From the NCBI GenBank assembly GCA_024643255.1, contig JAHENF010000006.1, positions 1-64,000 on the forward strand: a stretch of 64,000 nt of DNA, in the 5' to 3' direction. The notes beneath the pieces were generated by a model, which saw only the letters and a program-made list of their open reading frames with translations, made no database searches and had not been told where the DNA came from. The translations under genes were made by a program, and so were the position numbers. Source of the DNA: Ilumatobacteraceae bacterium. GTDB lineage: Bacteria; Actinomycetota; Acidimicrobiia; Acidimicrobiales; Ilumatobacteraceae. This document shows, one piece after another, positions 48,279-53,883 of the stretch (position 1 is the stretch's first letter; each line of letters opens with the position of its first letter).

Positions 48279-49445
48279 TCAGCCGCCGTCCTCGGGGCCG
48301 CGGTGGATCGGCGTGGCGACACCGCGGAAGCGCACGGGGCGCTCGGCGACCTCCTCGGCATAGTGGGCTCCCCAGCCGGCGATGCGCGCGACTGCGAAGA
48401 TCGGCGTGTTCGGCTCCAGGCCGGCGACCCACGTGAGCGCTCCGAGTGCGAGGTCGACGTTCGGTTGGCGCGGCATCACCCGGCCGACCTCGGCGACGAC
48501 CGCGTCGACCATCGCCGCACCGTCGGGGTCGAGCCGCCGAACACGATCGAGGAGCACGGGATACCTCGGATCGACACCGCGGTAGACCTTGTGGCCGAAT
48601 CCGGGAACCTGTCGGCGCTCCGAACGGAACCGGGCGATCACCACTGCCGCTCCGTCGTCGGCGCACGCTTCGAGGAATCGGTGCGCCTCGGCGGAGGCAG
48701 CGCCGTGCAGGGCCCCTTCCAGACATGCCAGGCCCGCGGCGAATGCGAGGTACGGCGTGGTTCGCACCGACGCGGCGATGCGCACCGCGAGCGTGCTCGT
48801 GGCGAGTTCGTGGTCGGCGAGCAGCACCAGTGCGGCGTCGACGGCCGCGACCAGTTCCTCCGATGGACGCCGACGCCACGCGGCCGTCAGCCGCAGGGCG
48901 TAGGAGCCGGTTCTCCGTTCGGAACCAAGCGCGACCGGCGCGGCGAGCAGCAGTCGCTTCGCCGAAGCGGCCGGGGAGTCGTCTGGGCGGCGGGCGGCCA
49001 TCACGTGCGCCGAGACAGTGAGCCGCCCGATCGACGACAGATCGAGTGAGGTGACCGTGTCGATCGCCGCGCGGTCGGTGGGTTCGTCCGGCGGCCAGAC
49101 CGTTCCCGATGGAACGACCCCACCCGACCACAACAGGTCGGCGACATCCTCGAACGAGTGCTCCGTGACGAGGGCCGACACCTCGTGACCGCGGTAACGC
49201 AACGACGACTCGTCGATCGTGGTGACCGCCGACGACACCTGGACGTCGATGGTGGCTCGGGGGCCCGACGGCGAGCGGCGGCTTCGCTCCGCAAGTCGGA
49301 TCACCTCGTCGCGGGAGAAGAGTGATGTGCGACCGTCTGCGCCAGTCGTTCGGCCGAGGCGACCCCGACTCACGTAGGCATACAGCGTCGCCTTCGAGAC
49401 GTTGAGCAGCGCGGCGGCCTCGGTGGATCGGATGAGCGTGCTCAT
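48279..49445 (-). CDS. DNA-binding (MerR/excisionase-type HTH) citrate synthase fusion
   Basis: 388 residues from the ATG at 49445 (an ATG at 49454 is equally possible). Residues 1-57 form a winged helix: STEAAALLNVSKATLYAYVS, then RTSLFSRDEVIRLAE. The rest is a citrate synthase fold with GFGHKVYRGVDPRYPVLLD and PNVDLALGALTWV; the LTIDH-type first His is replaced by VLLADHELATS, which keeps His. It is divergent from an ordinary citrate synthase across a set of TTGAY repeats, so it may be a metabolite-sensing regulator as well as, or instead of, an enzyme. Confidence 0.88.
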   Translation of the reverse strand: MSTLIRSTEAAALLNVSKATLYAYVSRGRLGRTTGADGRTSLFSRDEVIRLAERSRRSPSGPRATIDVQVSSAVTTIDESSLRYRGHEVSALVTEHSFEDVADLLWSGGVVPSGTVWPPDEPTDRAAIDTVTSLDLSSIGRLTVSAHVMAARRPDDSPAASAKRLLLAAPVALGSERRTGSYALRLTAAWRRRPSEELVAAVDAALVLLADHELATSTLAVRIAASVRTTPYLAFAAGLACLEGALHGAASAEAHRFLEACADDGAAVVIARFRSERRQVPGFGHKVYRGVDPRYPVLLDRVRRLDPDGAAMVDAVVAEVGRVMPRQPNVDLALGALTWVAGLEPNTPIFAVARIAGWGAHYAEEVAERPVRFRGVATPIHRGPEDGG

Positions 49446-49467
49446 CGGGTCCATGATGGGCGTCGGT

Positions 49468-49516
49468 GTTGACGATGTCAACGTTGATGAAATCAATGTT
49501 GATTTGATGCGTTGAC
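49468..49516. promoter_or_regulatory. Array of TTGAY/RTCAA half-sites between divergent citrate synthases
   Basis: GTTGAC-GAT-GTCAAC (49468-49482) and TTGAT-GAA-ATCAA (49484-49496) are perfect palindromes with the same 3-bp spacer. TTGAT follows at 49499 and 49504 and GTTGAC at 49511. Seven half-sites in 49 bp of this AT-rich divergent gap imply cooperative binding, most likely by the HTH-citrate synthase itself. Confidence 0.72.
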
Positions 49517-49533
49517 CATCGGACACTCATCTC

Positions 49534-50676
49534 ATGACACAACAACTCATCGACGTCCCCGCCGGGCTCAACGGCGTGATTGCCGCCGACACTGCGATCG
49601 GTGCGGTCGACGGTGACCGCGGCTTCTTCCACTACGGCGCCCACGACGCGACCACGCTGGCGCGCACCCGCTCGTTCGAGGAGGTGTGGTTCCTCGTGCG
49701 CGAAGGCCGGCTCCCGAACGACGACGAGGCACGAGCATTTCGCTCACTGGTCGCATCGCTGCGCGCGATCCCCGTGGACCTGCTGCCCGTGATCGACGTG
49801 ATGGCACGGCAGGAGGCCTCGATGTTGGCGAAGCTGCGTGCGGTGTTGTCCGTCGCGGCGCACGTCCTCGGATTCGACCCGGTGATCGACGTCGACGACG
49901 CCGCCCGGCGGGAACAGACCCTGCATCTGGCAGCGTTGGTGCCGTCGATCCTCGCCGCCCTGTCTCGCCTTGCCCGCGATGAGGCCCCCGTCGAGCCCGA
50001 TCCGACGCTCGCGCACGCCGCCGCGTACCTGCATCAGACGACGGGTGTCGTGCCGACGCCGGTCGCCGCCAGGGCCGTCGAGCAGTACATGATCCTGACG
50101 ATCGACCATGGGTTCAATGCGTCGACGTTCACCGCCCGGGTGGTCGCGTCGACGGGTGCCGATCCGGCCGACGCCGTGTGCGCCGCGCTCGGAGCGCTGG
50201 CCGGGCCGCTGCACGGCGGGGCACCCAGCCGGGCACTCGATGCCCTCGACGAGATCGGGTCCGTCGATCGGGCCGCCGACTGGGTGCGCGGTGAAATGGC
50301 GGCCGGTCGACGGATCATGGGGTTCGGGCATGCGGTCTACCGCGCCCCGGACCCGCGATCGGCACTGCTGCGGGAGGTCGCCGAACGGCTCGGTGGTGAC
50401 CTCGTCGAGTTCGCGATCGCCGTCGAAGCCGAGATCCTGGTCACTCTCGCCGAACTCAAGCCCGGCCGGCCGCTCCCGAGCAACGTCGAGTTCTATGCGG
50501 GCGTGGTGATGGAGACCGCCGGCCTGCCGCGCTCGATGTTCACACCGACGTTCGCCGTCAGCCGCACGGTGGGCTGGTGCGCCCACATCGTCGAACAGGC
50601 GGCTGCCGCGAAGCTCATCCGCCCGTCCTCGCGCTACATCGGCCCAGCCCCCACACCCGCGTGGGAGGGCCGGTAG
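49534..50676 (+). CDS. Citrate synthase (or 2-methylcitrate synthase)
   Basis: 380-residue citrate synthase. Catalytic His residues in LTIDHGFNAS and GFGHAVYRAPDPRS; the third catalytic position is Glu in SNVEFYAG, where Asp is usual. Substrate loop GGAPSRALDALDEIG. It condenses oxaloacetate with acetyl-CoA, or with propionyl-CoA. It is divergent from the HTH-citrate synthase fusion; they may form a regulator/enzyme pair or hetero-oligomer. gatC follows 11 bp later on the same strand. Confidence 0.9.
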   Translation: MTQQLIDVPAGLNGVIAADTAIGAVDGDRGFFHYGAHDATTLARTRSFEEVWFLVREGRLPNDDEARAFRSLVASLRAIPVDLLPVIDVMARQEASMLAKLRAVLSVAAHVLGFDPVIDVDDAARREQTLHLAALVPSILAALSRLARDEAPVEPDPTLAHAAAYLHQTTGVVPTPVAARAVEQYMILTIDHGFNASTFTARVVASTGADPADAVCAALGALAGPLHGGAPSRALDALDEIGSVDRAADWVRGEMAAGRRIMGFGHAVYRAPDPRSALLREVAERLGGDLVEFAIAVEAEILVTLAELKPGRPLPSNVEFYAGVVMETAGLPRSMFTPTFAVSRTVGWCAHIVEQAAAAKLIRPSSRYIGPAPTPAWEGR

Positions 50677-50687
50677 CCTCGTAGGTC

Positions 50688-50990
50688 GTGTCCGACCGCA
50701 TCACCCCCGAGGCAGTCGCGAAGGTGGCCAAGCTCGCTCGGCTGTCGCTCAGCGACGACGAATTGCTGCATGCGACGCATCAGCTGAGCGACATGCTGGA
50801 TCACTTCGCCGACATCGACGCTCTCGATCTCGACGGCGTCACGCCCATGACCCACCCAACGCCCATCGCCAATGTGATGCGCGAGGACATCGAGATGGAC
50901 TGCCTCGACCGTGACGAAGTGCTTGCCGCGGCACCCGCCGCAGAAGACGGGCGCTTCCGGGTGCCACCGATCATCGGCCTGGACGACTGA
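50688..50990 (+). CDS. gatC: Asp/Glu-tRNA amidotransferase subunit C
   Basis: 100 residues from a GTG at 50688. ITPEAVAKVAKLARLSLSDD and DLDGVTPMTHP are GatC hallmarks; it forms a belt around GatA and GatB. It makes Gln-tRNA(Gln) and Asn-tRNA(Asn) by transamidation. The stop overlaps the gatA ATG (TGATG). Confidence 0.94.
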   Translation: MSDRITPEAVAKVAKLARLSLSDDELLHATHQLSDMLDHFADIDALDLDGVTPMTHPTPIANVMREDIEMDCLDRDEVLAAAPAAEDGRFRVPPIIGLDD

Positions 50991-52435
50991 TGACCGATCT
51001 GACCGACTCGTTTCCGACAACGGCCATCGACATCGCCTGGAACGTCCGCAACAACATCGTCCGAGCGACCGAGGTCGTCGAACGGCATCTTGCGGAGATC
51101 GAGCGCCGCGAAGACGACATCCACGCGTTCAATCTCGTGCTGGCAGACGAGGCGCGTGAGCGAGCCGCCGAGATCGACGATGCGGTCTCCGTCGGACGCG
51201 ACGTCGGCCCCCTCGCCGGGGTGCCGATCGCGCTCAAGGACAACATGTGCACGCGAGGCATCCCGACGACGTGCTCGTCGAAGATCCTCGACGGTTGGCG
51301 GCCGCCGTACGACGCGACGGTCGTCACCAAACTCCGCGAAGCGGGTGCGATCGTCATCGGCAAGACCAACCTCGACGAGTTCGCGATGGGATCGAGCACC
51401 GAGAACTCGGCGTTCGGTCCGACTCGCAATCCGCATGACACCACCCGGGTCCCCGGAGGTTCGAGCGGCGGGTCGGCGGCCGCGGTGGCCGCGGGATTCG
51501 CGGCGCTGAGCCTCGGCTCCGACACTGGCGGATCGATTCGTCAACCGGCCGCGCTGTGTGGCGTGGTCGGGGTCAAGCCGACCTATGGCGCCGTCAGTCG
51601 ATACGGGCTGATCGCGTTCGCCTCGAGCCTCGACCAGATCGGGCCCTTCTCCACGACGGTCGCCGACGCGTCGCTGCTGCTCGAGTCGATCTCGGGGCAC
51701 GATCCGCTCGACTCGACCTCGATCCGCCAGGGGTCACTCGACATCACTCGCCAGCTCGACTTCGGCGTCGCAGGGCTTCGCGTCGGTCGGATCACGGACC
51801 TGCCGGAGGGCGCGAGCTCCGACGTCGTCGAACGACTCGAGCAGGCATTCGATGCACTGCGCGACGCAGGGGCCGAGATCGTCGACGTCGAGGTGCCGGC
51901 CTTCACGTACGGCCTCACCGCCTACTATCTGATCGCACCTGCCGAGGCGTCGAGCAACCTCGCCCGCTACGACGGCGTCCGCTTCGGCAATCGCGTCGAG
52001 GCCCCCGACACCAATGCGATGTACACCGCGACGCGCACCGACGGTTTCGGAGCCGAGGTCAAGCGGCGGATCATGCTCGGCACCTATGCACTGTCGGCGG
52101 GGTACTACGACGCCTACTACGGACGGGCGCTGAAGGTCCGCCAACGCATCGCCGACGACTTTGCGAGGGCGTACGAGCGAGCCGATGTGCTGCTGACGCC
52201 GGCATCGCCGACGGTCGCCTTCCACCTCGGGGACAAGACATCGGACCCGATGTCGATGTATCTCTGCGACACCTACACGATTCCGTCGAACCTCACCGGC
52301 GAGCCGGCGATGAGCGTGCCGTTCGGGACAGGCGACGACGGTCTGCCGGTCGGTGTGCAGGTTCTGGCGCCCGCCCTCCAGGAGGCGATGATGTTCCGTA
52401 CTGCCGCAGTCCTCGAACAGCGGGTGCCTCGATGA
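50990..52435 (+). CDS. gatA: Asp/Glu-tRNA amidotransferase subunit A (amidase)
   Basis: 481-residue amidase-signature enzyme that releases ammonia from Gln. Ser-cisSer-Lys triad: Lys in PIALKDNMC, the Ser in RVPGGSSGGSAAAVA and the later Ser in GSDTGGSIRQPAALCG. Its ATG overlaps the gatC stop, and its stop overlaps the gatB ATG (ATGA at 52432-52435), making a tightly coupled gatCAB operon. Confidence 0.97.
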   Translation: MTDLTDSFPTTAIDIAWNVRNNIVRATEVVERHLAEIERREDDIHAFNLVLADEARERAAEIDDAVSVGRDVGPLAGVPIALKDNMCTRGIPTTCSSKILDGWRPPYDATVVTKLREAGAIVIGKTNLDEFAMGSSTENSAFGPTRNPHDTTRVPGGSSGGSAAAVAAGFAALSLGSDTGGSIRQPAALCGVVGVKPTYGAVSRYGLIAFASSLDQIGPFSTTVADASLLLESISGHDPLDSTSIRQGSLDITRQLDFGVAGLRVGRITDLPEGASSDVVERLEQAFDALRDAGAEIVDVEVPAFTYGLTAYYLIAPAEASSNLARYDGVRFGNRVEAPDTNAMYTATRTDGFGAEVKRRIMLGTYALSAGYYDAYYGRALKVRQRIADDFARAYERADVLLTPASPTVAFHLGDKTSDPMSMYLCDTYTIPSNLTGEPAMSVPFGTGDDGLPVGVQVLAPALQEAMMFRTAAVLEQRVPR

Positions 52436-53883
52436 GCGACGCCATCACTTCCGAGTGGACCTTCCGCGGGTACGAGATGGTCGTGGGTCTCGAGGTCCAC
52501 GTCGAACTCGCCACCCGCACGAAGCTGTTCTCGGCGTCGCCCAACCGCTTCGGCGACGAGCCGAACACCAACATCGACCCGGTGACCCTCGGTCTGCCCG
52601 GGGCGCTCCCCGTGCTCAACCGTCAGGCGGTCGAACTCGCAATGCGCCTCGGCCTGGCCGTCAACTGCACCGTGCAGCGCTCGACCTTCGCCCGCAAGAA
52701 CTACTTCTACCCCGACATGCCGAAGGCGTATCAGATCAGCCAATACGACGAGCCGATCTGCATCGACGGCTGGCTCGACCTGCCCGATGGGTTCCGTGTC
52801 GGCATCGAACGCGCCCATCTCGAGGAGGACACCGGCAAGTCGACGCATGTCGGCGGGACAGGCGGGCGCATCCACGGGAGCGAGCATTCGTTGATCGACT
52901 TCAACCGCGCCGGTGTGCCGCTGGTCGAGATCGTCAGCCGTCCCGACATCCGAACCCCGGAGCAGGCCAAGGCCTACGTCAGCGAGTTGCGCGCGATCCT
53001 CGTCGCCGTCGGTGCGTCCGACGCGAAGATGGAGGAGGGCTCGATGCGCGTCGACGCGAACGTGAGCGTCCGCCTGCCGGGTGCCGAGTTCGGCACGCGA
53101 TGCGAGATCAAGAACGTCAACTCGGTGCGCTCGGTCGGTCGGGCGATCGAGTACGAAGCGCAACGTCAGGTCGGCATGCTCGAAGCCGGCGAGTCGATCC
53201 GCCAGGAGACGCGACACTGGGACGAGACCGACGGCCGGACGCACACGTTGCGCTCGAAGGAGGACGCCGACGACTACCGGTACTTCCAGGAACCCGACCT
53301 CGTCGTCGTCGATCCCGATCCCGAGTGGATCGAACGAGTTCGCTTCTCGCTGCCGGTGCTGCCGGCGGCGCGTCGGGTGTTGCTCGCCGCGGCGACCGGA
53401 CAGCGTCCCGACGCCGAAGCCATCCTCGTCGTGACCGACCGTGACCAGGACGCCTACGTGCTCGCCGTTGCCGCGGCGGGTGGTGATGCGAGCCGCGCGC
53501 TCGTGCACGTCAAGGAGGCCTTTGCCGACGAAGGTGCCCGCCCATCGGTGCCCGCCGCCGCGCTCGCGACGCTCACCCGGATGGAGATCGACGGAGAACT
53601 GACCGCCACCCAGGCCAAGCAGGTACTCGCGGAGTTGGCCGCCGGAGGTGGCGGCGACGCGCGCGCGATCGCGGCGGCGAAGGGGTTCGAGGCGATGGAT
53701 GCCTCCGAACTCGAAACGATGGTCGACGCGGCGATCGCCGCGCAGCCCGAGGCCTGGGCCAAGTACTGCAGCGGTGAGGGCAAGGCACTCGGCGCGCTCG
53801 TCGGCGCAGTGATGAAGGAGTCGCGGGGGCAGGCCGACGGCAAGGCCGTCACGGCGCTCCTCGAACGTCGCCGCGACGCCTGA
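52432..53883 (+). CDS. gatB: Asp/Glu-tRNA amidotransferase subunit B
   Basis: 483-residue tRNA-binding kinase subunit that activates the misacylated Glu or Asp. VGLEVHVELATRTKLFSAS, YFYPDMPKAYQISQYDEP and AHLEEDTGKSTHVGG are GatB signatures; the C-terminal YqeY-like domain starts near residue 330. Start at 52432 from the ATGA overlap. The stop is 3 bp before a palindromic repeat (53887). Confidence 0.97.
   Translation: MSDAITSEWTFRGYEMVVGLEVHVELATRTKLFSASPNRFGDEPNTNIDPVTLGLPGALPVLNRQAVELAMRLGLAVNCTVQRSTFARKNYFYPDMPKAYQISQYDEPICIDGWLDLPDGFRVGIERAHLEEDTGKSTHVGGTGGRIHGSEHSLIDFNRAGVPLVEIVSRPDIRTPEQAKAYVSELRAILVAVGASDAKMEEGSMRVDANVSVRLPGAEFGTRCEIKNVNSVRSVGRAIEYEAQRQVGMLEAGESIRQETRHWDETDGRTHTLRSKEDADDYRYFQEPDLVVVDPDPEWIERVRFSLPVLPAARRVLLAAATGQRPDAEAILVVTDRDQDAYVLAVAAAGGDASRALVHVKEAFADEGARPSVPAAALATLTRMEIDGELTATQAKQVLAELAAGGGGDARAIAAAKGFEAMDASELETMVDAAIAAQPEAWAKYCSGEGKALGALVGAVMKESRGQADGKAVTALLERRRDA

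Follow-up and report, generated by a model that had tools for sequence, protein, structure and literature searches.

Organization of the locus

The window analyzed here, a 64,000-nucleotide stretch of the genome of an Ilumatobacteraceae bacterium (GCA_024643255.1, contig JAHENF010000006.1, positions 1 to 64,000), carries two divergent genes related to citrate synthase. The gene on the reverse strand (48279-49445, 388 aa, P0001) encodes an N-terminal helix-turn-helix (HTH) fused to a citrate synthase domain, an architecture abbreviated below as HTH-CS, and is proposed to be an autoregulatory transcription factor. Its proposed target on the forward strand (49534-50676, 380 aa, P0002) encodes a CitA-type citrate synthase. 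With ATG 49445 taken as the start of the fusion gene, the intergenic region spans 88 bp (49446-49533) and contains a predicted operator array of seven TTGAY/RTCAA half-sites (49468-49516). Besides the divergent pair, the genome possesses one further citrate synthase gene, a housekeeping copy, for a total of three. On the 3′ side of citA, at 50688-53883, lie ORFs that by eye resemble gatC, gatA and gatB (amidotransferase subunits) and are apparently unrelated.

The HTH-citrate synthase fusion

An initial annotation, made from the sequence alone, described an excisionase-like HTH fused to citrate synthase and a second, divergent citrate synthase, and profile searches bear out both. In Pfam, the winged HTH (residues 4-56; 49278-49436, reverse strand) matches HTH_17 (PF12728) with 35.5 bits and the citrate synthase domain (residues 68-388; 48282-49244, reverse strand) matches Citrate_synt (PF00285) with 182.8 bits, each above the gathering score (cut-off 27 in both cases). 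The excisionase-type family TIGR01764 falls just under its cut-off (26.9 vs 28.8 bits), and the fusion does not reach the MerR family proper (PF00376, 17.2 vs 28.2 bits; PF13411, 15.3 vs 21.6 bits). Pfam returns only the HTH_17/MerR-like and Citrate_synt domains, with neither a LysR HTH nor its substrate-binding domain. Among the NCBIfam equivalogs and subfamilies, the protein scores under every curated cut-off for a named citrate synthase subfamily, the best being TIGR01800 with 123.6 vs 421.3 bits.

The AlphaFold model of the fusion has a mean pLDDT of 91.6. Its HTH consists of helices 7-14, 18-26 and 45-56 with wing strands 32-34 and 41-44, at a pLDDT of about 93-97 up to residue 50 that declines into the linker. 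The long dimerization helix that follows the HTH in MerR proteins is missing from the model, and linker residues 57-74 contain no helix. Residues 68-388 superpose on Pseudomonas aeruginosa PrpC (6s6f) with a Z of 36.3 and an rmsd of 3.5 over 320 residues (VIA-align), and the domain thus has the citrate synthase fold. Catalytic residues H247, H285 and D331 are all present, as are the substrate-binding residues H212, R294, R354 and R374.

The mechanically listed ORF of the fusion opens upstream at GTG 49526 (415 aa) and crosses the operator array. ATG 49445 is the likely start, because the N-termini of homologues fall there and a predicted promoter lies 7 nt upstream. GTG 49526 is unlikely, as the operator and promoter would then fall within the gene.

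The divergent citrate synthase

The partner matches Citrate_synt with 348.4 bits (Pfam) and exceeds the curated cut-off of the CitA-type family PRK12350/NF009005 (336.5 bits vs 332). Its best PDB match is Bacillus subtilis CitA (2c6x), and it groups in the CitA clade. The initial annotation also pointed to Glu in place of the usual catalytic Asp in its SNVEFYAG motif. The residue (Glu319) was correctly read, but it has no bearing on the case for a sensor, since CitA-type enzymes normally carry it: it occurs in 109 of 109 CitA-type partners and in the structures of B. subtilis CitA (2c6x) and Mycobacterium tuberculosis CitA, which rules it out as a mark of changed function. At related loci of the order to which the bacterium belongs, the divergent CitA bears an in-frame N-terminal CBS pair in 14 of 44 cases by motif (e.g., L051:309-1835 and L044:264-1745, plus about 12 further loci), with Pfam confirming CBS in two. 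This suggests allosteric control of CitA by adenylate besides transcriptional control.

Operator array and promoters

All seven half-sites of the initial annotation are present, at positions 49469, 49477, 49484, 49492, 49499, 49504 and 49512, in the layout GTTGACGATGTCAAC.GTTGATGAAATCAAT.GTTGATTTGATGCGTTGAC. Two cores of sequence RTCAAYRTTGAY occupy 49477-49488 and 49492-49503. The window holds two copies of TTGAYNNNRTCAA vs 0.07 expected, and in the 3.57-Mb genome RTCAAYRTTGAY is found solely within the fusion/citA intergenic region; no further copy in this genome indicates a regulon beyond the locus. A chance origin of the array is excluded by the window expectation, by its uniqueness in the genome and by its conservation relative to shuffled sequences (see below).

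Two promoters are predicted within the intergenic region, and their −35 boxes are operator half-sites. The fusion-gene promoter (49453-49481, reverse strand) pairs TTGACA (49481-49476) with CATCAT (49458-49453) across 17 nt and ends 7 nt before ATG 49445; the search that located it returned one promoter vs a shuffle mean of 0.0. The 17-nt spacing and a distance of 6-7 nt to the fusion start recur in L004, L005, L006 and L059. On this side, the window and its nearest relatives have a clear −10 signal, which is not sharp when all homologues are taken together. The citA promoter (49499-49527, forward strand) joins TTGATT (49499-49504) to GACACT (49522-49527), also across 17 nt, and ends 6 nt before ATG 49534. 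An xAxxxT hexamer lies exactly 17 nt past the last half-site in 25 of 41 homologous regions, while the other spacings tested are each found in 0-5. Transcripts from both promoters are likely leaderless, judging by these distances.

Repression is the preferred mode of action, because a protein seated on the array would obstruct the −35 boxes of the two promoters. MerR-type HTHs frequently activate, and the several adjacent half-sites would also suit a protein that activates citA or acts on it as a dual switch in the manner of MerR. Such a role is nevertheless doubtful in view of the coincidence of half-sites with −35 boxes, the normal 17-bp spacer of the citA promoter compared with 19-20 bp at MerR-activated promoters, and the missing MerR dimerization helix.

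Conservation of the operator

Related loci were gathered into a comparison set of 153 from at least eight phyla, from which known duplicates were removed and in which a few may remain. A scan of named genomes with the fusion alignment gave at least 574 confirmed relatives, and 80 loci were kept, from Actinomycetota, Pseudomonadota, Chloroflexota, Deinococcota, Gemmatimonadota, Dormibacterota, Myxococcota and Verrucomicrobiota. Conservation of the HTH in this named-genome set is partly by construction, because the HTH peptide TLYAYVSRG served as part of the seed for the scan.

In 147 of 153 loci, the region upstream of the fusion contains a site matching RTCAAYVTTGAY in at least 11 of 12 letters (133 perfect, 14 with 11 letters). 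Dinucleotide shuffles reach 11 of 12 in 1.2% of cases and 12 of 12 never, and a reversed RTCAAYVTTGAY decoy never exceeds 10 of 12 in the upstream regions of the 153 loci. Within the order, 51 of 198 genomes carry the fusion (by reading of the search output). CitA is divergent from it in nearly all of the 50 order loci examined, and the intergenic regions of fusion loci display the same palindrome. A 20-bp pattern, TTGAYNNNRTCAAYRTTGAY, has 38 matches in 25 of the 198 genomes, all but four of them just upstream of the fusion, and is present in 23 of 51 fusion-bearing vs 2 of 147 other genomes (Fisher p 6e-14). Among nine named genomes or records, the site occurs at the fusion's own promoter in eight, which have 0-3 further matches; L090, the ninth, has a site that deviates from the pattern searched.

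The site is missing at the citrate synthase genes of five order genomes that lack a full fusion and at the housekeeping citrate synthase gene of the window genome (best 8-10 of 12 letters in each case). It is found upstream of fusions for which no citA was found (L006, L009, L010, L019 and L033). The initial annotation had suggested self-regulation, and the comparison strongly supports it: a conserved operator in the shared promoter region follows the fusion gene across phyla, even without citA, and sequence comparison thus firmly favors an operator that tracks the fusion rather than its partner.

Could the array be read by an unrelated regulator, such as MtrA or GlnR in actinomycetes, instead of the fusion's own HTH? 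MtrA does bind the SCO5831-SCO5832 intergenic region of Streptomyces coelicolor in vitro (PMC12323332), but conservation of the site across many phyla, its linkage to the fusion gene and its lack at citrate synthase genes of genomes without the fusion render this very improbable. SCO5831 and SCO5832 (citA3/citA4) lie on either side of a single intergenic region; that study describes both as putative citrate synthases and considers MtrA alone as their regulator (PMC12323332). Streptomyces loci L072 and L081 contain an HTH-CS/CitA pair and operator as in the window. The reported MtrA site, TTGACTTAACTGTCCA (PMC12323332), opens with a TTGAC half-site resembling those of the array. MtrA and the fusion may compete at this intergenic region.

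Partner genes at related loci

In 109 of the 153 loci, the divergent neighbor of the fusion encodes a CitA-type citrate synthase. In 14 others, all from Xanthomonadaceae (Pseudoxanthomonas, Stenotrophomonas and Luteimonas), it is prpB (methylisocitrate lyase), followed by prpC (2-methylcitrate synthase) where the flank extends far enough. HTH-CS lies divergent from prpB-prpC in L084, L091, L097, L104, L105, L121, L127 and others, which makes it a candidate for controlling the methylcitrate cycle in this family. Another 11 of 153 loci have a condensing enzyme of HMGL-like type, a relative of homocitrate and isopropylmalate synthases (in place of CitA in L055, L056, L085, L093, L095, L096, L122 and L138). 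Those of the HMGL-like partners that were scored fall under all NCBIfam cut-offs, and they are candidates for unrecognized citrate or homocitrate synthases. Rarer partners are a leuB-like gene with a citrate synthase gene, class III CoA-transferase, a TctC receptor and DinB. The neighbor of the fusion in L115 and L117 (Paraburkholderia) and L112 (Comamonadaceae) encodes either a class III CoA-transferase or TctC, a tricarboxylate-transporter receptor.

The operator is retained with all main partner types, as well as where no partner was found among the 153 loci, and is therefore tied to the fusion gene. The range of partners points to a signal common to enzymes condensing a 2-oxo acid with an acyl-CoA.

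Ligand pocket and catalytic residues

Residues of the fusions were numbered after pig citrate synthase according to their motif positions. Equivalents of the oxaloacetate contacts His238, Arg329 and Arg421 are conserved in 153 of 153 fusions and that of Arg401 in 151, with Lys in the other two. Catalytic equivalents are likewise retained in most fusions (His274, 148/153; His320, 148/153; Asp375, 152/153). The proposal of the initial annotation that the fusion acts as a metabolite sensor gains support from this near-universal predicted pocket, which persists even where catalytic residues are lost.

Oxaloacetate may not be the ligand at every locus; the partner types differ, and other ligands are possible. 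A product or acyl-CoA, such as citrate, 2-methylcitrate or propionyl-CoA, is a serious candidate in its place, if somewhat short of probable. The partners include prpB-prpC, HMGL-like enzymes, a CoA-transferase and a tricarboxylate-transporter receptor, and in citrate synthases the arginines that contact oxaloacetate also bind citrate through its carboxylates. Conservation is nonetheless highest at the oxaloacetate contacts, which by themselves do not separate substrate from product.

The full catalytic triad is found in 146 of 153 fusions and is broken in seven. Five of these seven clearly have the operator (L032, L053, L088, L093 and L112), L153 has an 11 of 12 site located farther upstream, and L048, which lies near a contig end, has no operator match. 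The L112 fusion is devoid of both the His274 and Asp375 equivalents. In the phylogenetic tree, fusions form a single clade (SH-aLRT 100) apart from the CitA partners (97), and their end branches are longer than those of CitA. Catalytic residues are thus dispensable in some lineages, and the tree and the broken triads fit a sensor freed from catalysis there.

Trigger enzymes such as PutA, BirA and NadR combine an enzyme-derived and a DNA-binding domain in one chain and control genes of their own pathway, including their own. The fusion shares this combination, although some HTH-CS members, unlike PutA, BirA and NadR, have lost catalytic residues. By analogy with PutA and BirA, the fusion could be a working citrate or 2-methylcitrate synthase that binds the operator and whose turnover sets the regulatory state. 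Retention of triad and pocket in 146 of 153 proteins, the window protein included, and the intact fold of the model would be expected of such an enzyme. It is nonetheless an unlikely account of the family, given the longer branches of the fusions and the seven members whose triad is broken and whose pocket is preserved; the operator is clearly present in five of these. No citrate synthase acting as a trigger enzyme was found in the literature searched.

A further argument against a working enzyme comes from Caulobacter crescentus. There, CitB (CCNA_03757) complements an Escherichia coli gltA mutant while CitC (CCNA_03758) does not, and their identities to B. subtilis CitA are 37% and 32%, respectively (PMC7083601). 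In 21 Caulobacteraceae loci, the partner is about 34-38% and the fusion about 26-35% (mostly ~32%) identical to the same protein. Because these values match the published ones, and from the synteny of the family, CitC is probably an HTH-CS orthologue, which would make it a member without citrate synthase function in E. coli. As in the window, the two citrate synthase-like genes are neighbors; in contrast to the reading proposed here, CitC is treated in that study as a citrate synthase-like paralogue that is inactive in E. coli, with no mention of a DNA-binding domain or an operator in the passages searched (PMC7083601).

Proposed mechanism

The fusion is very probably a one-component, autoregulating repressor that uses a citrate synthase domain as its sensor, with its DNA binding and ligand inferred. 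Here, the excisionase/MerR-like winged HTH would read DNA, and the citrate synthase fold would sense the ligand. Citrate synthases are usually homodimers, and as such the fusion would sit on inverted RTTGAY half-sites in the 88-bp region and, from the position of these half-sites, repress citA as well as its own gene. Filling of the conserved pocket by oxaloacetate, alone or together with an acyl-CoA, would then close the citrate synthase domain. This closure would reposition the two HTHs and relieve repression, such that CitA is produced when its substrate is abundant.

Relation to known systems

In B. subtilis, the LysR-type regulator CitR is encoded divergently from a CitA-type citrate synthase gene, which it controls. 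The window shares with this system a dedicated regulator gene divergent from a CitA-type gene. It differs in that the fusion has an excisionase-type HTH and senses through a citrate synthase domain of its own. Enzyme domains serving as sensors beside an HTH are a known kind, exemplified by trigger enzymes and BirA-like proteins; no earlier case of citrate synthase in this role was found in the open-licence literature. That literature likewise yielded no paper in which a fusion of citrate synthase and a DNA-binding domain is described as a regulator, and no description of the HTH-CS operator; such genes are called citrate synthases there. ATU_RS25370 of Agrobacterium fabrum illustrates the point: it has the fusion architecture, a divergent citrate synthase/methylcitrate synthase and the operator, all as in the window, and is labelled by NCBI solely as an enzyme family member ("citrate synthase family protein").

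Significance

Taken as a family, HTH-CS proteins seem more plausibly than otherwise to be widespread, unrecognized transcription factors in which citrate synthase was turned into a receptor for oxaloacetate (or acyl-CoA/tricarboxylate). With one deeply conserved operator from Actinomycetota to Pseudomonadota and Deinococcota, they would control the acyl-CoA condensing enzyme encoded opposite, including prpBC of Xanthomonadaceae. Hundreds of genomes (at least 574 confirmed matches) carry HTH-CS, labelled citrate synthase in the records and papers found. If the protein is a regulator, these labels are wrong, and so are metabolic models that rely on them. The family would then supply a transcription factor responsive to metabolites that enter the citric acid and methylcitrate cycles, which would be useful as a biosensor part. 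With some copies in which catalytic residues are gone while the pocket and operator persist, HTH-CS would offer a natural series for the change from enzyme to sensor.
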